DNA from: Prorocentrum cordatum
Lineage: Eukaryota > Sar > Dinophyceae > Prorocentrales > Prorocentraceae
Direction of reading: 5' to 3'
NCBI GenBank assembly: GCA_963575745.1
Contig: CAUYUJ010019110.1
Location: 123,334 to 187,333, forward strand
Length of the DNA stretch: 64,000 bases
In this document: piece by piece, positions 19,291 through 33,000 of the stretch
Layout of the letters: each line of letters opens with the position of its first letter
Position numbering within the stretch: position 1 is the stretch's first letter
Made by a program: the position numbers and the translations under genes
Notes under the pieces: model-generated
Seen by the model: the letters and a program-made list of their open reading frames with translations, nothing else
What the model was told of the DNA's origin: nothing
Databases searched by the model: none

Positions 19291-19470
19291 TCGTTTCACA
19301 CGCTTGCTATCCCACATGGCGGGATTGATGCTCGTCTAGAGACTGTAGGTGAGGAATAAACAGCTGTTTACAGGCAACAGCTAGTTTCCATCACACGCTT
19401 GCTATTCCACGTGATGGGATTGATGCTGGTCTGGAGACTGCAGGTGCAGAATGAACTGCAGTTCAAATGC
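19291..19470. repeat. Tandem duplication, about 96-bp period
   Basis: TCACACGCTTGCTAT.CCAC, GATTGATGCT and GAGACTG.AGGTG occur at about 19294-19355 and again at 19390-19450. Confidence 0.8.
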
Positions 19471-19639
19471 AACCACGCGTTTCCGAAGCCATCCCTGCCA
19501 AGAGAAATAAGCAGGATCGCCCTGCGAACGTGGCCAAGCTTCTGGGCCATCATCGGGGCACAACAAACAAGGCCTCGAAAAATCAAGGACTCGACAGAAC
19601 AGCAGTGGCCCCGGACTCGGGCAAGAGAGAATTCTACAG

Positions 19640-20215
19640 TTATGACTCCAGTAGCGTCGGGGGTACGGAGTCTCTTCACGGCACGCTGAATGAGATGCTG
19701 GAGCTTCGGGTGGCCGAGCGCGGCCGCCCGAACATAGCCTCGAAATGCATCGGGCGCGTCGGCGCACATTTGGCCGTGTCGCCACGCATTGTGCGTCCGA
19801 AACAAGCCATACACACCAACGGCACGGAGGGCAATTGCAGCCGCCGTGGCCCCCTCACCTCTGCACTGTTCAGGAAGGCAAGACACGTGCGGGGCGATAC
19901 CTAGAAAGTCTGCCAGGCGAAATTCAGGCGGTGGCCGGCCAAGCCCAAGGAAGCGGCGGCACAGCGAATGAAACGTACTGCAAAACGCGTGGTGCTCGAG
20001 GAAGTCCTCTCCTCTTCGGCAGCACGCGCAACCCGCCATCGTTTCCTCCACGTCCACCAAGTCGGCTAGCATGCTCCTGCCTGCAATGAAGCCCCGCTGG
20101 GTCCAAGTCACCTTCGGCCCGACAACGGGCTCGACGAGGTGGCGCACCGCGTTGGCCAGCAAGCGAGTGTCAGTGTTGGTCACCGACAAGGGCCAGGTGT
20201 TTTCGGGCTCGCAGT
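19640..20215 (-). pseudogene. Internally deleted non-LTR reverse transcriptase fragment
   Basis: The minus strand encodes WPLSVTNTDTRLLANAV and QRGFIAGRSMLADLVDVEE, the early RT motifs of a non-LTR pol (RPLS.TN.D.. and QRGF..GRS). This is followed almost at once by EDFLEHHAFCSTF and ALRAVGVYGLFRTHNAWRHG, a stretch I associate with the far C-terminal end of such pols. The catalytic palm with YxDD is missing. The host frame 20351-19368 is open for 327 codons across the junction, unlike the badly broken copy at 8.9-17 kb, so this copy is younger or was deleted late. It cannot reverse transcribe by itself. Confidence 0.65.
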
Positions 20216-21027
20216 GCCCCTCCCCCGTGGACAGCGTGCCCGAAGGCGCCTTGGGGAGCAGGAGTTGCGAGTTATATACAGAATAGCTAGCAGGAATAAC
20301 AGGAAAAATGCTGATATCTGTATACATATGTGTATAAATAGATGTACACACATATACGCGTGCGTGGATACGCGGGTGGAGGGTGGGTGGCTTTCAACAT
20401 GATTTGCGCTCGCTGGTGTTAACAAAACCAGAGGCTGCGCTGATGAAGGCAAATCGTGTTCAAAATGAAGCTCTCGCATTGGCGCCACGCACACTCGTCG
20501 TAGAAACTCCAACCCAGCACACGGATGGAGGGCGGCTCTCGTTAAACATCGGCCTCTTGCCTTAGACTTCCACGACTTCCACGACATAAATCTTCCAAAG
20601 CTGTGAACGGCTGCACGGATGGCGGCCAATCGTTTTCAAAAAGAGGGCTCCCGCGTGAGACTCACATTCCACTACAAGCACATGTCGTGCATTTCTAATC
20701 GTGCTCATTTCTAAGTGTGCTCGTTTCTAATTGCTCCTGGCCCCCTAGTGGCCAGGAAGAGGCCCAGGATAGAACAATTCGAAATGAAAGGATCTTGGCC
20801 CCCAAAAAATCAAGGAATTTTCGAAGGAGTAGAAATGAGCAATGTGTACAGGAGATGCTCAACGGCGGCACGAATGGAGGGCGGCTCCGTCTCAAACCCG
20901 GGGGTTCTCACCCGAGGCTTCCTCGAACCTTCTGGCCAGCACCAGCTGCGCCAATGCAGCGCGACTCCTGCTCAGGGCGGGCCAGCCGCTGGACACTTCG
21001 TTGAACTAGATGTAGGAGAGCTCCAAA
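20216..21027. other. No gene recognised
   Basis: A TATACA microsatellite lies at 20315-20360. Around 20690-20830 short words (CTCATTTCTAA, CTCGTTTCTAATTG) are repeated. No motif found. Confidence 0.4.
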
Positions 21028-23900: not shown

Positions 23901-24570
23901 ATACCCAAGAGGAACATGGACTTGAGTGTAGATTGCAGCATCGATGATGCAGCATGGGCTTACTCTGGTTATCATCATGTGCCTCCTCCCTATCAAGGCA
24001 AAGTAAGGCAAGGCAAGGTTCTGTGCGAGCACGCAGATGGGTCCGATACCGGACGCGGAGTGGAACAATTGCACGAGTTACACATGACGAACTCTGCTAT
24101 TGCTGCTTCGTTGGCAAAGAATCGAAGAAGGAGAGAGGAGAGGACGCGCGAGGGGAGAGGGGGACGCACGACGGGCAAGGACGAGAGGGGACGACCGAGG
24201 AGACACTAGCGGGAATCTGGCGCAGCTTCGCCCTGTGATGCTGTTGACCTGGCCGCGAGTCCACCTGCAGATATATCGCACGTCGCTCGTGGTCTGCCCA
24301 TGGAGCGCTTCAGGTTGGACAGGCAGCTTTGCATCTGCAACGTCGCTTAGGTTCCAGACCGCGACTAAACTCAACAACGTGTGTGCCGGCTCAGAAGGAG
24401 AATGCTTTCCTGCAAGCGACCTCTGCTATGGATGAGCTCAGTGGCCCATTGGCGACTGGACTTGCGAACCTGCGCAGCGTCGATGTCTTATTTCCTCTTT
24501 TCATCAGCACCCTCATGTCACCTCTACTGTTATGGCTCTTTGTGTCTGTACATGTCTAGGCGTGAATATA
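23901..24570. other. No gene recognised; left flank of the YR retroelement
   Basis: GA-rich at 24120-24200. No motif-bearing frame. Confidence 0.4.
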
Positions 24571-24580
24571 CATATATATG

Positions 24581-24826
24581 TATATGCTTCTCTCACCTGT
24601 TTTTGTGCACTCCGCCAGGGAGCTTGTCAGGCCAGGACCTCTGGGGGCTACTCAGGGGTCAACCCAGGAGTTGGGAGAGGTCCCGTCCCTTCAGCGGCCT
24701 CCAAGGGCCTCCCAACCCGCCTGGCACAGCCGTGGCGCTTAAGCACCCGCGCTGCGTCCCAGACGCGCTGGGCCCTTGCCCCGCCGGGAGGTTAAACGTC
24801 ACCAACCCCTGAACCCCCTAGCTCTC
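24581..24826 (-). repeat. Split direct repeat B2 (246 bp)
   Basis: It matches 25003-25248 at a constant offset of 422 with no difference that I noticed. It forms the outer 3' end of the element in its own orientation. The 78 bp between B2 and A2 (24827-24904) are unique. Confidence 0.9.
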
Positions 24827-24904
24827 GTCCTGGCAAAAACTCGCGCGGAGGCAGGCACGGCCACGCGCGAGACGGTAGCAATGCTGCCCCCTGTCTGTGG
24901 GTGG

Positions 24905-25007
24905 GCCAACACAGCTACGGAAGATGGATGAAACTCACGTTATCCATCAACGGCGTCGCGCACGCTCAGGTGGACTCCGCATAGGTTTCCTTGGAAGGTT
25001 CATATAT
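24905..25007 (-). repeat. Split direct repeat A2 (103 bp)
   Basis: It matches 31754-31856 at a constant offset of 6849. Its end overlaps B1 by five bases (TATAT), so B1 and A2 abut directly as expected for split direct repeats. Confidence 0.9.
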
Positions 25008-25248
25008 GCTTCTCTCACCTGTTTTTGTGCACTCCGCCAGGGAGCTTGTCAGGCCAGGACCTCTGGGGGCTACTCAGGGGTCAACCCAGGAGTTGGGAGA
25101 GGTCCCGTCCCTTCAGCGGCCTCCAAGGGCCTCCCAACCCGCCTGGCACAGCCGTGGCGCTTAAGCACCCGCGCTGCGTCCCAGACGCGCTGGGCCCTTG
25201 CCCCGCCGGGAGGTTAAACGTCACCAACCCCTGAACCCCCTAGCTCTC
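25003..25248 (-). repeat. Split direct repeat B1 (246 bp)
   Basis: Inner copy of B2, lying just downstream of the recombinase frame in element orientation. Confidence 0.9.
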
Positions 25249-25367
25249 TCCACGGTCCCTACCCTGGCAACAGCCGCTCCCTCTTGCTCTTACTTATGCC
25301 CTCCACCTTGTTGTAATGAAATGAGGGAAGAAAGGTGGAGGATGGGCGGGACAAACAGACAGGCAGT

Positions 25368-26397
25368 TCAAAGCAAGAACAGTCCATCTCGCCTCTGCTT
25401 GCAGGCGCGCGCGAGCAGGTTGCAGCGCCTCCGCTGCGTGGGCGAGAGATTTAATTGAGTGGCTTCGGCGACGGCATCATGGACATAAAAGCGGGCCGTG
25501 CACGCCGATGCCATCTGCCTCGGAGCAGCGTCTGCTCATGGAGCTGTGGCTGCGGAAGTCGGCGGAGGCGCCTCCCGACGCCAGCTGTAAAGAGTGAGCT
25601 TGGCATCTTGCAGCTCCAGCAGCTCACGTATGGGCCGAGAGTGCTCATGAAACTGCTTGGCTCCATCTCGAGGCAACAGTCTTGTCCGTGCGCCTGAGCC
25701 TTTGCTTTGGCAAGGAGGGCGACCGCTACACCGCTCCGCACGAGCACGAACTGACGGGCACCAGTCTGATGCTGGCTCTTGGTGTTGCGCAGCTGCAGCA
25801 CGGTCATTTGGCGGACTGGATACAGCTGTACATCAGACCACACGAGCGAGGTCATCTCACCCGTTTGGAGGAAAGCGTCGTAGCCTGCTGCCAGCACCGC
25901 CGCAGCGCCACGCTGGCCCACGGCCGCCAATGCACCTGCAAACGCTGTTGTAGGACTGATCGGCAGCGCTCGCGCAGCTGGCTCCAGGCGTTGCCGTTAG
26001 GCCAGCGCCAGCTGTCTCGCAGGTGCCCTCGCACGGGCGGGAAAGAGTGCCTGATGCCTGCAATTGCATTATTAACTTCAACTAAAGATCCTCCGCTCAG
26101 CCAACGGCTCTCGATGAAGGCGACCACGCCAGCGTCGACCTGAGCGGGCGTCTGCGGCTGGCGGTGCTCCTGAATCCAGAAATCAACGACCTCCCCGACC
26201 GCCGCACGGTACCGCCGCAGGGTGAGCGGCGTGACCATCGCCTCCCTCAGCGGCTGGGTCCTCGCTGCAGCTCGTCGCGCCATCGCCTGGGCCGTGACCC
26301 GGCTTTCCTTTGCTGCTGCTTGCGCTGCACGCTTGCCAGGGGCGGCTCTCCTGGCTCTCGCCGGCGGCAGCACTGGCAGCGTGGCAGCGGCGGCCAT
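25368..26397 (-). pseudogene. Tyrosine recombinase, frameshifted
   Basis: Three minus-strand frames carry one protein. Frame 1 (ATG 26397, overlapping the end of pol by about 215 nt) has the core-binding part TPLTLRRYRAAVGEVVDFW and LVEVNNAIAGIRHSF. A frameshift near 25975 leads to the catalytic part PTTAFAGALAAVGQRGAAAV and FLQTGEMTSLVWSDVQL. A second shift within about 25500-25620 leads to the end TARFYVHDAVAEATQL, which supplies the likely nucleophile Tyr; the stop is at 25370. The first catalytic Arg of the family (R-x-x-E-L) is Gln here (codon CAA in LQTGEM). LYSWRR keeps the second Arg. The enzyme would cut and join the circular DNA form at insertion. Dead by two frameshifts and the lost Arg. 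Confidence 0.7.
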
Positions 26398-29300
26398 AGC
26401 TCCAGCGGGGCGGCGTGTCGGCGGGCATGTCGACGGTGTCGCAGTACTTGTACAGCGGGTACCCGGCCGTCGCGAGGAGCAGGGAGTTGAGCTGCCGGAG
26501 CGCGGGCTGCAAAGTCCTCACGCTCGATCTGCCCTTGGTGCTGACTGCCGTGAACGGTTGGGCATCCAGAATGTGCAGGTAGCGGCAGCGGTGGTTCTCA
26601 ACTGCTCGGCACCTCCAGCGCGCTCCATCCACCGCAGCCTCCAGCACCAGCGCCGAGATGTGCCCGGGCCGCTGCCAGCTCAAGCCTGGCTGCTGGAAAT
26701 CGGGGACCACGTTCCAGCTCGCCTCAGGCACGGGCAGCCGGCCCTGCTGACGCCTCGCGTCCCAGATGAGGCTGCCGTCCCCGTCGTTGTCGACCTGGTA
26801 GCGGTAGCTGTCGGCAGCCCAGCGCTCCGCGGCCAGCACCGAGGCGCGGTCGGGGCCCACGGGCCGGAACGGCGGGTGGCGTCCCGGGATCGGCCTCGTG
26901 AAACACGGGAGGTCCGCCTCTGGGTCCAGCGTCGACCAGCCCTCCAAGACCGAGGCATTCAGTGGGAGCCTCTCCACCACAAGCAAGACCTTGAAGTACG
27001 CGGCCTCACCCACACCCTTGGTCTCGACGGTGGCGTCGGACGCCGAGAACGCCGTGACGGGCCACGAGCACCAGTACAGGCGCGGCCGCTTGATGTGAGC
27101 GTGACACCTGGGACCGAGGAACACGGGCGTGACTCCCAGCGCCCTGGTGATCTCCGCCCTCGACTCCAGGGTCATGCTGGACACATTCTCGACGAACACC
27201 ATGGTGCGCTTAGGACAGGCAACCTCCGCTGCCTGGATCAGCTCGGGGACCGGGAAGAAGAGCTTCGGCCTCGACCCCTCTAGGTCGGTCCCCACGACAT
27301 TGATGCTTGCAAGATCTCGGCTCGGGCTTCCCGCGCACAAGACGACCCGGTCGGCGTCCCGCGCATAACCCTTCAGCATCTCCGTGAACCGCACCGTGTC
27401 GACGGCCTCGATGAGGCCAAGCTCGATCACGCCCGCCCAGCGGCGACTCACAAGTCGCCGGGCAGCGGGCTCAACCTCGCAGCTGACGGGGGCGATCACG
27501 TCGTTCGGGAGTCTGGAGGCCTCCACCGCGGCCCCAGCAGCGCCTGCGTAGAGCTCGATGAGAGCTATGCGAGGGGGCCACCGCGCACCACGCACAGGAG
27601 CCGCAACTGCACCAGGCCGCAAAGTCACTGCTGAAGCTCCCCCCCTCGCGCAGGCAACGCCCCGCGCCGAGAGCCCAGCCGTGTGGCAGATGCCCCCAGC
27701 GCGCTCACTGGCATCGGTCGCAATGACACAAGTGTCGATCCTTGCGCGCAGGTCGGTGTATGCCAGCGGCAGCGCCATCGCGGAGTCCGAGAGCTCGTCG
27801 CACATGCCAAGGGGAACAGCCTGCGGTCGCGTCCAGCACCCAGCAGCCCCCACGCTGTTGAGGAACCCCACAAAAGGCCTCCTGAACTCCGCTGCCCTGT
27901 CGCACCTGCCCAGGACCATGAGCATGCCCTGCGTCGAGAGGCCCTGTCTGCCCACGCCCCACAGGATGAGCGCGAGCAACTGGTGCAGCTTCTCGGTCGT
28001 GACTCCAACCTGGCCGACGGCCCCGTCAAACCCCGCGCCCATCTGCTCCAGGACCAGCGCGCGGTGCTTGACCTTGCCGGGGGCGACGCTGGTCCCCGAG
28101 CAGCCGTAGGCGGCCCTCTGCTTCTCCGGGGCGCAGCTCACCGCGCCGATGAGCTCCGCGACCATCGCGCTGGGCACCACCTCGCCATGGTCCCAGTCGT
28201 CGATGCAGTACTGGACCCACTGCTGCTCGAGCCCCCTCGACTTGAACGGAAGTGGGCGGTCCTTGTGCCACTCGAGATCCGCGGGAAACCCCGCAGCGAG
28301 GGGACGAGAGCCGACCCCGAGGCGCCTGTGGCAGTGCTGAAACACCGAGTCCGCGTTGATCCAGCCCAACGGGAAGACGAGCAGCGCGAGGTGTGTCTTC
28401 CCTGGACCCGGCACACCGATGAGCTCGCTCGGGATCGCCTCCGCGAGGGCCATGGATGGCTGCCAAGCCTCGGGCAGCTCGCCGCCGTAGAAAGCGGAGG
28501 CCAGGTCATCTGAGGACCCGAGCAGCATGTGGCCCTCTGGGAGCGGGACGGCGACCCACGAGGGCGATGCACTTAGGGTCCCAATGTCGTCCCTCATGAT
28601 GCGCTGGTAGCTGTCGGCCGGGACCATGTTGATGATCAGGCGCTGGACGCACGCCTGGCCGGGTGACCGCGTGCCGCCCTTGGCGTCCCCGAACGCCTCA
28701 GCGAGCACCCTGCGGCTCCCGACCTTGAAGATGCGGTCGTCGGCGATCGGCGCAGCCAGCCCCAGCTCGACGAGCTTGGTCCAGATGCGGTACCACTCCT
28801 GCTTGGACGTGACCTGGATCGCCGCCCGCGGGACCTCGGCAGGCGACTCATCCCGAGGGAGCAAAGCCAGCGTGGGGCCGGCAAGCCAGGCGCCCGCCTG
28901 AGCGTCCGCGAGGTCGACCGCCTTGACCGATGCGGGGGCGCCCTGCGCGGGGAGGCCTGGCATGTTGCCTGCAAGCGAGAGCGGCGGGGCGCGGGACGTC
29001 ACCTCGCCCCCGTGGGAGTCGGTCTTCGACGCGATGACCTGGTCCCAGTCCGGGAGCTCGAACGCTGCGGCAGCATCCTGAACGAAGTTCACACACACCT
29101 CCTGCACAATGCCGAGCGCACTGATCTGACCTGCCGTGGGCCGCCTCGCGGCGACGGTTGGACAACGCATGTGCCCCATGTACGGGTAGTTCAGGCTGAA
29201 GTCCACGAGCAGGGCCCACCCCTGCGCCGCGGCGGCGTCCACCTCGCAGGTCTCCGGCAACTGCTGGTGCAAGTACCAGGCGGCGCGGTGCCTCTCGAAG

Positions 29301-29590
29301 AGTGGGGCGTCGGGCAACGGTAACGGCGACACCTCGCGCAGCCGCGCGAAGCTGGCCGTGGGGTCTGGCGAAGTGCACATCTCACAAACATACCGCCCGA
29401 TCGCCCCTGGCGAACCGTGCGCCGCCTCGTGGACCGCGAGGGCGAGCCTGAACTTGGAGCTGACACCTGCGCCCACCTCGGCTGGCATCTGGCGCCACCG
29501 CCGAGCCCGCGAGCTGCCGCGCAGCTGCCGCTCAGGCGGGCGGAGGGCAGGCGGGGGCGAGCGCGAGGCCGCGGCCTCCGCAGCGTCAGC
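26183..29590 (-). CDS. Pol polyprotein: RT, RNase H, DNA methyltransferase
   Basis: This frame is open for about 1,135 codons to the stop at 26183-26185. The same frame stays open up to 31597, but that part is a shadow of gag. RT: motif A SSDDLASAFYGG (Asp codons 28510-28505), FPLGWINADSVFQHCHRRLG, and the catalytic YCIDDWD (Tyr 28210-28208, Asp-Asp 28201-28196). RNase H begins with VIATDASERAGG (Asp 27715-27713). The methyltransferase domain follows, and RNase H resumes with HILDAQPFTAVSTKGRSS (Asp 26566-26564) and PADTPPRW. RT and both RNase H Asp residues are intact. The frame lies at -1 relative to gag, so expression would need a frameshift or a separate start (an ATG lies at 29488). I believe this domain order recurs in dinoflagellate retroelements. 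Confidence 0.8.
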   Translation of the reverse strand, partial: ADAAEAAASRSPPPALRPPERQLRGSSRARRWRQMPAEVGAGVSSKFRLALAVHEAAHGSPGAIGRYVCEMCTSPDPTASFARLREVSPLPLPDAPLFERHRAAWYLHQQLPETCEVDAAAAQGWALLVDFSLNYPYMGHMRCPTVAARRPTAGQISALGIVQEVCVNFVQDAAAAFELPDWDQVIASKTDSHGGEVTSRAPPLSLAGNMPGLPAQGAPASVKAVDLADAQAGAWLAGPTLALLPRDESPAEVPRAAIQVTSKQEWYRIWTKLVELGLAAPIADDRIFKVGSRRVLAEAFGDAKGGTRSPGQACVQRLIINMVPADSYQRIMRDDIGTLSASPSWVAVPLPEGHMLLGSSDDLASAFYGGELPEAWQPSMALAEAIPSELIGVPGPGKTHLALLVFPLGWINADSVFQHCHRRLGVGSRPLAAGFPADLEWHKDRPLPFKSRGLEQQWVQYCIDDWDHGEVVPSAMVAELIGAVSCAPEKQRAAYGCSGTSVAPGKVKHRALVLEQMGAGFDGAVGQVGVTTEKLHQLLALILWGVGRQGLSTQGMLMVLGRCDRAAEFRRPFVGFLNSVGAAGCWTRPQAVPLGMCDELSDSAMALPLAYTDLRARIDTCVIATDASERAGGICHTAGLSARGVACARGGASAVTLRPGAVAAPVRGARWPPRIALIELYAGAAGAAVEASRLPNDVIAPVSCEVEPAARRLVSRRWAGVIELGLIEAVDTVRFTEMLKGYARDADRVVLCAGSPSRDLASINVVGTDLEGSRPKLFFPVPELIQAAEVACPKRTMVFVENVSSMTLESRAEITRALGVTPVFLGPRCHAHIKRPRLYWCSWPVTAFSASDATVETKGVGEAAYFKVLLVVERLPLNASVLEGWSTLDPEADLPCFTRPIPGRHPPFRPVGPDRASVLAAERWAADSYRYQVDNDGDGSLIWDARRQQGRLPVPEASWNVVPDFQQPGLSWQRPGHISALVLEAAVDGARWRCRAVENHRCRYLHILDAQPFTAVSTKGRSSVRTLQPALRQLNSLLLATAGYPLYKYCDTVDMPADTPPRWSYGRRCHAASAAAGESQESRPWQACSASSSKGKPGHGPGDGATSCSEDPAAEGGDGHAAHPAAVPCGGRGGR
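26990..27570 (-). CDS. C5 DNA methyltransferase domain with Ser at the catalytic Cys
   Basis: This domain is part of pol. Motif I is IALIELYAGAAGAAVEA (27570-27515), binding S-adenosylmethionine. Motif IV reads CAGSPSRDLASIN where the family has GPPC or SPCQ; the catalytic Cys position is Ser (codon AGC, 27322-27320). Motif VI FVENVSSM is intact (Glu 27190-27188) and motif VIII is KRPRLYW. TGC to AGC needs one base change. Without Cys the enzyme cannot form the covalent intermediate with cytosine, so methylation activity is not expected. The rest of the domain is undamaged, so loss is recent or the domain kept another role such as DNA binding. Confidence 0.75.
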
Positions 29591-29592
29591 CC

Positions 29593-31593
29593 TCACGCCC
29601 GAACCCGGGCTGTCCTGCGGGCAGTGCTCGTGCCGCGGCTCCTCCCCGTCTTGCCTTTGCCGCGGCTCTTGGCAGCCGGCGGCCTCCCAATGTGCGCCTT
29701 CCACGCCGCCTGGGTCTCGCCCTCGCGCCTCGGGTGGGCCGCCTTGTGCTGCGCGAAGCTCCGGCCTGCAGCCGCGTCCGCTGGTGGCACGCGGGCGGCG
29801 GCTGCTGCGTCGAGGTCCCCCTCGGAGTCGCTCAGGAGCTGGACCGACCGCGTGGGACTGCAGCTGGTCCTCCGCGCTGCTGGCGGCTTCTTCCCGGCGC
29901 GGAGAGCTGCTGGACCGTCGCCTGGGTCTCGTCCGGCAAGGATCCTCATCGCCTCGGGCGATCCTGAGTCTGGCGTCCCGGGAGCAGGGGGCGGGCGGCG
30001 CGCCTCCGCGCGCCCATGGCCTGCAGGTGCCGTCCCCCCCAGCAACGGAGACGGCTCCCGGCCAGGCCCCCAGCCCGGCCTGCGGTCTGCAAGTCGCTGG
30101 TGGAGTTCGGCGACCTTCAGCTCCCGGGCCTCGACCTTCTCGGCAGCGTTCTCCTCGTCCAGAGAGGTGCCTGACGGAAGCTGTTCCTGCGCAACCAGCG
30201 TGAGCCATCGTGCCGATTGCCAGCTTCCGTCGCGGATGGCCATCGACCGCGCCTTGAACTCCAGCACGACCAGATCCGCCGTCTTGATGACCTCCCCGCG
30301 CAGGATGCCGTCGAGCGCCAGCCCCGGCGGGCGGAGGACCCGCCCCTCGACTGACCCCAGCGTCTGCGGCGGGTGAGCATCGAAGAACACCGTGTTCAGG
30401 AACTGTGCGACACACGGGGCCCGCAGGTCGGCCTCGCCTGCAGACAACTGCTGAGTGAACTGGCTGCGCAGGTGGCCAAGCCCACTCACGAGGAGAGCGT
30501 CGGGCCGCTGTCAAGCAATCCAGCCGAACAAGTCGCGCTTGCTGCTCACGCCCTGGTAGCGGTCGCGGCCCCCAAGGCGCCCTGTGTCGCTCTCCGCGCC
30601 GTCCTCCACGTCGTCGTCGTCGCGGTCCAGGAGCGCCGCGGTCACGGCCGATGCTGGCCTGCTCCTCCTCCCCGAGGCGCCAGTGCGCGCTGGGGCAGCA
30701 GCGGCGGCTCGGCCAGCAACCTCCTGTGCCAGGCGCTCGCCTACGGCTCCTGCCGGGCGCGCAGCGTTCTTGGGCGTGCCCTGCCTCGGCACACCACGAG
30801 CTGCCCTGCCCTCCAGCCGCGCCAGCCGCGCCTCGAGCTCGGGGTCCTCGGCGGTCTCCTCGAGCCCGGCGATCTCCTGGTCGAGTGGGCTCGCCTCTCC
30901 TGGACCGCCCGGGGTCAGGGTGCCCTCCACCTCGCGGGCGCACTTGTGCGGAGGCCCGCGAGGCTCCTCCTCGACTTTGTTGCTCCCATCCCCGAGCGGC
31001 CAGCCGCCGTCCTCTCCAGGCAGTGGCTCGGCCGAGGGCGCGTCGGTCCGCACAGGCGCCCCAGGATTCGCTGCTGGGCAGATGAGCTTCGCCCGCTCGC
31101 GGGCCACGCCGCGGGGGTCCACTACCTGCCACACGACCAAGTGCTCGACCACAGCGCCAGCTGGAGCGACCGTCCCGCACTTGTTGGCGCTGCACCTGCA
31201 GAGGTGGAAGACCGTGGCCGCGGGGCGTGCGCCCCGCTGCCCGCAGGTGGCCGCCTACAATGAGATGTACGGGTCCCTGGCGCCCACCTGCCGGGCCTTG
31301 ATGAATCTGCCGAAAGTGTCCGCCTGGTAGGCGACCTCGACCTCGAGCATCTCGACGCCCTGCGGCGCCCCTGCGTCGTCCTAGACCCGCGCCAGGACCC
31401 GTGCACCAGCCCTCGGCGGCAGCCCCGCCCCCAGCTCGTCGTTCAGCGCCGCGTCGAGCCAGGCTCCTCTCGGGAAGGGCCACCCGCCGGCAGCTGGGGC
31501 TGCCCGGTCCATCGGGCTCCTCGCCAGCAACAAAGCGGGAGAGGGGCGACCCGCGCCCGGGATCCTCGTCTCCCAGCCAGGTCCTCGCTCCCC
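29593..31593 (-). pseudogene. Gag-like region, broken by in-frame stops
   Basis: One minus-strand frame has protein-like content throughout, -1 to pol: VEMLEVEVAYQADTFGRFIK, a Cys-rich stretch HLCRCSANKCGTV, acidic and Pro-rich linkers, AQFLNTVFFDAHPPQTLGS, MAIRDGSWQSARWLTLVAQE, a Glu-rich helix EENAAEKVEARELKVAELHQ, and a basic tail KSRGKGKTGRSRG ending at the stop 29593-29595. It is interrupted by TAG at 31383-31381, TAG at 31257-31255 and TGA at 30513-30511. Protein character continues across all three, so they are nonsense changes and not true ends. TGA at 30511 could be a CGA to TGA change at a CpG. Gag would package the element RNA. The real start is not clear; TGA at 31596-31594 bounds the frame. 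Confidence 0.6.
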
Positions 31594-31753
31594 TCACCCC
31601 ACCAAGGCTGCCAGCGAGGCTGATCAGAATCAGTCGTCTGAGCGTGGCCCTGCAAGTGGCCGCGCGCGGCGCGGCAGTCTTTCAGTAGACAGAGTGGCTC
31701 GGCAGCGGCCACAGACGGGCGGCACCGCCCGGTGACTCCGCTGCCTGTCGCAA

Positions 31754-31856
31754 GCCAACACAGCTACGGAAGATGGATGAAACTCACGTTATCCATCAAC
31801 GGCGTCGCGCACGCTCAGGTGGACTCCGCATAGGTTTCCTTGGAAGGTTCATATAT
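31754..31856 (-). repeat. Split direct repeat A1 (103 bp)
   Basis: The 5' end of the element in its own orientation, with the same sequence as A2 (24905-25007). Its outer edge runs into CATATATATGTATATG, also present at the other end of the element. Confidence 0.9.
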
Positions 31857-31865
31857 ATGTATATG

Positions 31866-33000
31866 TATGTATACGCGCTACATCAGAGAACAAGATAAAA
31901 AGTGGATGTGCTGTAACTTTCGCGTAAACTCCAGGCCTGTCCTCTCCACCTAACTGCTTTCTCTCTATATCAATATGTATATGTATATGATATACAAATG
32001 CGTAAATATATAAATTAATACATATAGATATCACTCTCTCGATTTCTGCATGTTACATCTCTTTCTATACATGAAGTCTCCATTTACTTGGTATGGCCTC
32101 ACACCTCGCTCTGCACGCCGCTGTCCCAGACATGGTCTCTACTGGAGTCATGTTTTCTGGTTTGTATAACTTGTGTGTTCATCGATTGCGTCTCCATCTT
32201 TATACATAATTAAATGTGTATCTGCCTTTCGCTTTAATAAAAATATGTTATGTGTTGTATGTGATATCTCTCTATACATATATATATATATATATATAAA
32301 TATAAATATAAATTCGCCCTGTGCTCTCTGACTTGTGCTATGCACTATATTCCCTCTCATCCGGGCCTCCCCATCCATCATTCAAGATTATACCTAACAG
32401 TGGTCGCAAATACTCTCTCTCTCTCTCTCTCGCCAACCCCTCTTGTCAACTCTGCTAGCGACTTCCTAGCCCCTGCATTCTTTACGATGGAAAACCAAGG
32501 CGCTTGGCCACAACTAAGGTATCCTGAAACCTTACGCCAGGACAACCAGAACGCCAGAACAATCTTACGCCGACGCAGAAATTTTACGCCAGAAGCCACA
32601 ATCAAGACACAACCCAGGCGCTTGGCCATAGTCTTACCCTGTCAGGAATCCAGCAAAGGGAAATGGGAAACCGGAAACCCACCAAACCGTATACTACCCA
32701 AGACCACGAAATCGGGAACCGGGAACCCCAGAACCCAGCCGCCTACCGAAGTCGGCTCGGGAATTTCGCCAAATCCATCCGTCTCCGCGAGGACCCCTTC
32801 AGTACAAGCACTGACTGGGGAAGAATGATATGTCTCTCTACCTTTGCCTATTCTACTAGTCCCTCAAGTCACCTGCCTACTCTACTTTTCATCACAGTTT
32901 TGATTCGCAGCCAACTCATCAAAACTGTGCTTCAATTCGTGCCCCAGTTAAAGTTGCTAGAAGACCCACTACAATTCAGACACCGCATACTAGTCGTACT
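31866..33000. other. AT-rich, no gene recognised
   Basis: Notably AT-richer than the rest, with TATA runs at 31850-32030 and 32270-32310 and a CT run at 32412-32432. At 32510-32640 short words (TTACGCCAGAA, AGGCGCTTGGCCA) repeat. Confidence 0.5.

Follow-up and report, generated by a model that had tools for sequence, protein, structure and literature searches.

A damaged tyrosine-recombinase retrotransposon lineage of Prorocentrum cordatum, probably carried in trans and associated with TA arrays

This study concerns a retrotransposon in a stretch of 64,000 nucleotides of the dinoflagellate Prorocentrum cordatum (assembly GCA_963575745.1, contig CAUYUJ010019110.1, positions 123,334 to 187,333), which we call the window and whose coordinates are used throughout. 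In our judgement the element probably represents, as one copy, a lineage of split-direct-repeat tyrosine-recombinase (YR) retrotransposons of the SymbioDIRS-Dnmt3 kind that is damaged but was mobile until recently, is carried in trans and mostly enters TA arrays. The class has already been published (PMC5890265), and the targeting of TA arrays or simple repeats is known for other elements (PMC4486113, PMC10871703). What is new is a recently spread damaged lineage that shares its lesions across insertions, together with a likely helper subfamily, and the TA arrays found beside most left ends.

Layout and ends of the element and its copies

The open reading frames (ORFs) lie on the minus strand, so the element is read in that direction; its non-coding features, in that order and followed by the two flanks, are these:

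31754..31856, minus strand: A1 repeat, the 5' end in the coding sense; conserved bases stop at ATAT (31851-31854)
25003..25248, minus strand: B1 repeat
25002..25008, minus strand: A/B junction core of 7 bp (ATATATG on the plus strand), presumed circle-junction template and crossover site
24905..25007, minus strand: A2 repeat
24827..24904, minus strand: unique spacer of 78 nt between A2 and B2
24581..24826, minus strand: B2 repeat, the 3' end of the element; conserved bases start at ATG (24584)
24565..24583, strand not applicable: left flank, TA-rich target sequence
31855..31873, strand not applicable: right flank, TA-rich target sequence; ATATATATGTATATG is present at both junctions

A sequence-only reading of this DNA had proposed an A1-ORFs-B1-A2-B2 layout, and its geometry proved exact. 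The A repeats (103 bp) lie at an offset of 6849 and the B repeats (246 bp) at an offset of 422, each pair is 100% identical when the four copies are aligned, and B1 and A2 abut as described, with an overlap of 5 bp (TATAT, 25003-25007). On the plus strand the B1A2 junction reads GGTTC-ATATATG-CTTCTC. Both repeats are direct, not inverted as in DIRS1. The spacer that separates A2 from B2 had gone unmentioned, and it is also present in 4/4 other copies probed (L009, L012, L018 and L083). Judged from the bases conserved at copy ends, the element extends from about 24584 to 31854, which makes 7271 bp.

Other copies were sought in the P. cordatum assembly (4.13 Gb), using the 40 that were scored out of 187 candidates for the A repeat and a B-start pattern that matched 131 places, of which 100 were listed; the reversed control of that pattern matched 0 places. 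Both A and both B repeats occur in 20 of the 25 long stretches fetched (the window, L009-L018, L029-L038 and L083-L086), which represent 19 insertions, L029 and L030 sharing both flanks and being a single insertion on two contigs. Within these 20 stretches A1 differs from A2 at 0-3 positions and B1 from B2 at 0-6. With identical 246-bp repeats and the same arrangement in 20/25 stretches, the layout is far beyond chance. Copy-to-copy homology ends at ATG on the B side and at ATAT on the A side, and the other flanks compared differ. The sequence-only reading had named homology running past the A or B repeats into unique flank as evidence against itself; none was found, and its claim to have full ends in a dinoflagellate host is borne out.

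Some stretches depart from this pattern. L031 and L033 contain A1, the ORFs and one B without A2, still flanked by TA repeats, as either B1 x B2 recombination or the integration of a simple circle would leave them. L032 (2671 N) and L036 (1900 N) are masked in places and were left out of the tree, and L038 meets a contig end. In L017 (C15013), L041 (C10180) and L045 (C3984), B1 and B2 carry start variants of different subfamilies (CTACTC vs CTTCTC), which may reflect template switching between the RNAs of two subfamilies during reverse transcription. At C1113:528699-528950 of G000 the B starts are 222 bp apart, against 417-434 in other pairs among the matches listed, and the higher of the two shows an internal junction (L048).

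Shared lesions and a likely helper

The lineage to which the window copy belongs has spread recently and is damaged in gag, reverse transcriptase (RT), RNase H, DNA methyltransferase (DNMT) and YR. Its coding regions are as follows:

29593..31512, minus strand: gag-like ORF, frame mapped by tblastn of relatives; in-frame stops at 31383, 31257 and 30513
26183..29698, minus strand: pol open frame with RT, RNase H part 1, truncated DNMT and RNase H part 2
27800..28960, minus strand: RT region, approximate limits, from motif and homology; the domain name is inferred, with no Pfam or PDB match to RT
27575..27755, minus strand: RNase H part 1 (TDAS, Asp codon 27715) and linker to DNMT, from motif; fold inferred from the modelled secondary structure of a relative
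26723..27575, minus strand: DNMT3-type methyltransferase; catalytic Cys to Ser at 27322, C-terminal segment of 219 nt missing
26440..26722, minus strand: RNase H part 2, approximate limits; segment of 165 nt missing, Glu of relatives to Val at 26647
25410..26322, minus strand: YR ORF; frameshifts near 25996 and 25632, first catalytic Arg (LRTGE) to Gln at 25867

The lesions of the window copy thus comprise the three gag stops, a CIDD in RT where relatives have YIDD (codon 28207, both Asp retained), the DNMT Ser (the Cys codon now being AGC), the losses of 219 and 165 nt, the RNase H Val, and the Gln and frameshifts of YR, where we take the Arg of LRTGE to be the first catalytic one. The description of the element as complete-length therefore holds for its ends and fails for its genes, each of which carries lesions, with the C-terminus of DNMT missing.

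These lesions are widely shared. All seven codon changes checked are common to nine rows, or eight insertions (the window, L009, L010, L011, L014, L029/L030, L034 and L038). A further six (L012, L013, L015, L016, L017 and L037) have both early gag stops, CIDD and Ser in common with them, and all 15 rows lack both the 219-nt and the 165-nt segment. L033 shows CIDD and Ser with the 165-nt segment retained, L031 and L035 retain YIDD and Cys with the 219-nt segment missing, and L018 retains the checked residues and both segments. Within the window group identity is 98.9-99.8%, and the eight copies compared each have between 3 and 37 differences of their own. The graded sharing shows that the lesions accumulated stepwise in a lineage that was still inserting, and since they are common to insertions with different flanks, they predate those insertions.

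For the loss of the two pol segments, retro-splicing was considered because both window junctions (26722 and 26682) read AG|G; the DNA of L018 at the edges of the missing segments has short repeats (GAGG; possibly AGG), with no good donor for the second, and a template-jumping deletion is at least as likely. The RT/RNase H region of L018 is also longer by about 206 nt, at about window position 27980 in the alignment; the added sequence is partly T-rich, lies in two pieces that flank a 10-nt stretch and is possibly an intron-like insertion.

A likely source of enzymes was found among the places matched by the B-start pattern. By our own count, the 100 of 131 places listed include 16 pairs of B starts 427 bp apart, and four of these pairs in full (L083-L086) measure 7676-7677 bp, with 99.5-99.9% mutual identity and 90.3-90.6% identity to the window copy. 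In 4/4 the frames counted from stop to stop (gag 507, pol 1984 and YR 477 codons) are uninterrupted and contain the motifs sought, and the DNMT Cys, ENV and GNTF motifs are kept. Their A and B repeats are 96-97% like those of the window, and the core is identical. Judging from these sequences, the open-frame sister subfamily is the likely helper of the window lineage, and the existence of such copies makes mobilisation in trans plausible. The window lineage itself is probably no longer able to make its own enzymes, and from its lesions RT activity has presumably been lost.

Identification of the domains relied on several kinds of evidence. The recombinase that the sequence-only reading had named is supported by a Cre-like profile match and by the fold in relatives, the ORF being broken in the window copy and open in L083-L086; PF00589 scored above the cut-off in one of the three YR proteins scanned. 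For RT and RNase H, Pfam scans and PDB profile searches gave no match, and a structure-neighbour list was dominated by DNMT, which makes the absence of both from that list uninformative. The motifs YxDD, ENV and HIS/HIN..E occur in that order in 38/61 proteins (own count); ENV precedes YxDD in P0060, and each of the other 22/61 either misses one or more of these patterns or has a chance match to one. No integrase-type Pfam match was found in the five window ORFs or in 7 and 8 relatives, and the same scans missed even RT, so the earlier statement that there is no DDE integrase stands only weakly. In the window ORFs Pfam returned only a sub-threshold UBA_4, and viral-contig scans and phage records gave nothing useful.

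The methyltransferase of pol is a cytosine-C5, DNMT3-like enzyme and is not Dam-like. In a model of the relative P0039 (1093 residues; predicted local distance difference test, pLDDT, 85; predicted template modelling score, pTM, 0.78), DNMT is preceded by two long strands (494-517) and followed by a strand-helix-strand-helix series (964-1067); in relatives where the patterns match, TDAS lies before and HIS/HIN..E after the DNMT motifs. Taken together, the strands and helices around DNMT and the order of the motifs suggest that DNMT is apparently set inside RNase H, which would be split after its second strand. Such nesting, if true, is an unusual domain arrangement. Elsewhere in the window, an open frame on the minus strand (19371-20393) resembles by eye a piece of a non-LTR (long terminal repeat) reverse transcriptase.

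Two other accounts of how the damaged copies spread must be weighed against mobilisation in trans. They could have been moved by their own enzymes and have decayed later, with gene conversion keeping the repeats identical. Conversion is possible between B1 and B2, which are only 422 bp apart, and the single B of L031 and L033 fits B1 x B2 recombination; identical stops, substitutions, frameshifts and deletions in many insertions with different flanks nevertheless place the lesions earlier, and we regard this account as very improbable. Alternatively, the lineage could have spread as DNA, by segmental duplication or by YR-driven excision and re-integration of circles without reverse transcription. 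YR could in principle recombine circles, and L029/L030 is indeed one insertion on two contigs, but the other flanks differ, homology ends at the element ends, and the 0-3 and 0-6 differences within copies are what templated renewal predicts. Spread as DNA is thus unlikely, if somewhat less so than later decay.

TA arrays at the insertion ends and the proposed life cycle

Left ends were scored for 8 bp or more of alternating A and T within the 20 bp before ATG and were made distinct by their exact 43-base flank. L048, L059, L066, L068, L077 and L080, which show the internal junction only, stand outside the left-end count, and L036 and L038 give no right end. An array lies beside 49 of 55 distinct left ends and 14 of 23 distinct right ends, and on at least one side at 20 of the 21 distinct loci that have both ends. 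Under a strict measure that skips the seven core bases, 40/55 left and 13/23 right ends pass. In the window outside the element, the strict measure passes at 167 of 55,960 positions (0.3%) and beyond 35 of 129 TATAT occurrences (27%); compared with the latter, the left ends are strongly enriched (binomial P 2.6e-12). Of the 42 stretches with an internal junction, some of which represent the same copy twice, 41 read GGTTCATATATG there and the remaining one reads GGTTCACATATG, so no expansion of the core occurs within the element. Compound microsatellites make up several flanks, in which (CA)n, (CT)n, (GA)n or (CATA)n, for example, adjoin TA.

These observations can be accommodated in a life cycle modelled on known relatives. 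PMC3266345 describes internal repeats that template a circle, which integrates by recombining with a short stretch of the genome identical to it and makes no target-site duplication, and DIRS-1 circles are reported as verified in PMC5633606. In the lineage studied here, the RNA would lack the outer parts of A1 and B2, and the internal B1A2 junction would template a DNA circle whose A/B junction carries the core ATATATG. Integration would then follow from a crossover, made by a Cre-like recombinase, between this core and a TATAT-like sequence that usually lies in a TA array. The B side would be left with ATG and the A side with ATAT; both are kept at the ends of the element, which fits a crossover between or close to them. 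The window lineage would probably be moved in trans by the intact sister subfamily, which has similar ends and similar surroundings and shares its circle-junction core.

Several points weigh against this reading. The RT of the window copy keeps both catalytic Asp, RT and RNase H are identified by motifs and secondary structure, not by a fold match, and the life cycle is read from genomic sequence, not from transcripts, circles or new insertions. The looser array measure passes beside 53/129 occurrences of TATAT, 46/89 of ATATAT and 4/11 of TATATG, which means that TA-rich cores tend to be found in arrays anyway and that the left ends are informative by their excess over this; the null, moreover, comes from one 64-kb window. 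The array measure is not passed at six of the 55 left ends (L015, L041, L060, L061, L073 and L079), L061 and L079 clearly not being TA arrays, the right ends are weaker than the left, and the left ends L044 and L046 were located by ATG itself and are no test of it. Finally, the L011 insertion sits in a dispersed repeat of a numerous family (at least 40 places scored). A joined-flank query of several loci gave 4350 candidates, and the best 40, all in the L011 part, were scored; 20 of them were fetched. These are paralogous empty sites, and 20/20 carry GGCAGGGA-ATGAATATA-CCCCCC or a close variant of it, with neither the element nor an array. At the filled L011 site TA runs lie on either side of the element, and arrays may therefore arise during insertion or later. 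The empty paralogues match the joined flanks at only 81-91%, and none need be the parent site. For the window insertion, the search for empty sites that the sequence-only reading had proposed returned nothing beyond the two flanks of the insertion itself and three short matches rich in TA.

The contrast between filled and empty L011 sites, together with the non-array insertions L061 and L079, is what speaks for the idea that the element makes its arrays: the target would be a short TATA-like sequence, and the TA core of the circle junction would seed arrays at both ends, expanding during or after integration through cDNA synthesis, repair or slippage. If this were true, the family would seed simple repeats through a 4-Gb genome, with damaged relatives riding along. 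Yet the core is unexpanded inside the element in 42/42 stretches, the compound-microsatellite flanks look older than the insertion, and some insertions have no array, and we therefore view array creation as a minority possibility. We lean instead towards a recombinase directed by its TA core into existing TA arrays, which would serve as a harmless niche. A different reading starts from the 15 bases ATATATATGTATATG on both sides of the window copy, which could be a target-site duplication made by an integrase of another type. It was rejected and retains hardly any credibility: other copies have no constant duplicated length and only TA repeats, relatives encode YR, and, if a circle recombines with a TA-rich target, the match at the two junctions is a property of that target.

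Relation to known elements and implications

By its sequence, the element is a YR retrotransposon close to SymbioDIRS-Dnmt3, published by de Mendoza et al. 2018 (PMC5890265). The two share a dinoflagellate host, A-coding-B-A-B repeats, a DNMT3-type domain in pol next to RT, and a separate YR ORF, all found in the window family (RT by motif only), and Symbiodinium proteins are among its relatives: a pol query gave 13 proteins, 12 of them from P. cordatum, and a profile search gave 60 that include Symbiodinium and Effrenium. None of the 13, 60 and 62 hits of the protein searches is a named DIRS, Ngaro or PAT reference. The host genus differs (Symbiodinium vs Prorocentrum), and functional DNMT residues are conserved in SymbioDIRS-Dnmt3, whereas the window lineage has lost the catalytic Cys and the C-terminus. 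The passages concerned in PMC5890265 do not mention DIRS insertion sites, DNMT inside RNase H or damaged mobile lineages.

The Ngaro/PAT assignment of the sequence-only reading holds as far as split direct repeats and YR go. Ngaro elements, for instance from Cafeteria (PMC8547959), likewise have an A1-[ORFs]-B1A2B2 order and a YR replacing the integrase, with internal repeats downstream of YR (PMC4157794), but they are described there without a methyltransferase domain, and the plain Ngaro label was rejected on account of the DNMT3-type methyltransferase in pol. With PAT and DIRS1, as presented in PMC4157794 and PMC3266345, the family shares YR, a methyltransferase-bearing pol, the circle-junction model and integration at a short identical sequence without target-site duplication, and with PAT also split direct repeats. 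The DIRS-class methyltransferase, however, is Dam-like and unrelated to DNMT according to PMC5890265, and DIRS1 is characterised by inverted terminal repeats with internal complementary regions, which the window element lacks, and by a 3-bp junction in place of the 5-7 bp TA sequence seen here. Among unrelated elements, MuTAnT (PMC4486113) inserts in TA microsatellites and is a Mutator DNA transposon; nimaviral YRs drive insertion into simple (telomere) repeats and are not YR retrotransposons, and where nimaviruses use (AT/TA)n, a DDE transposase is responsible (both as reported in PMC10871703). In the Creative Commons-licensed literature, judged mostly from listings, we found no description of YR retrotransposons in TA microsatellites or of damaged mobile DIRS-Dnmt3 lineages.

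For a retrotransposon class that is hard to delimit, our results supply exact ends, the sequence of the core and a likely pair of helper and parasite, with dozens of insertions that can be compared within one genome. Several questions can now be tested, such as whether a YR retrotransposon has its target selected by its circle-junction core and whether TA arrays precede or follow insertion; the numerous repeat family that hosts L011 allows filled and empty members to be compared genome-wide. It also becomes testable whether DNMT is dispensable in cis, a lineage in which it is damaged having spread nonetheless.

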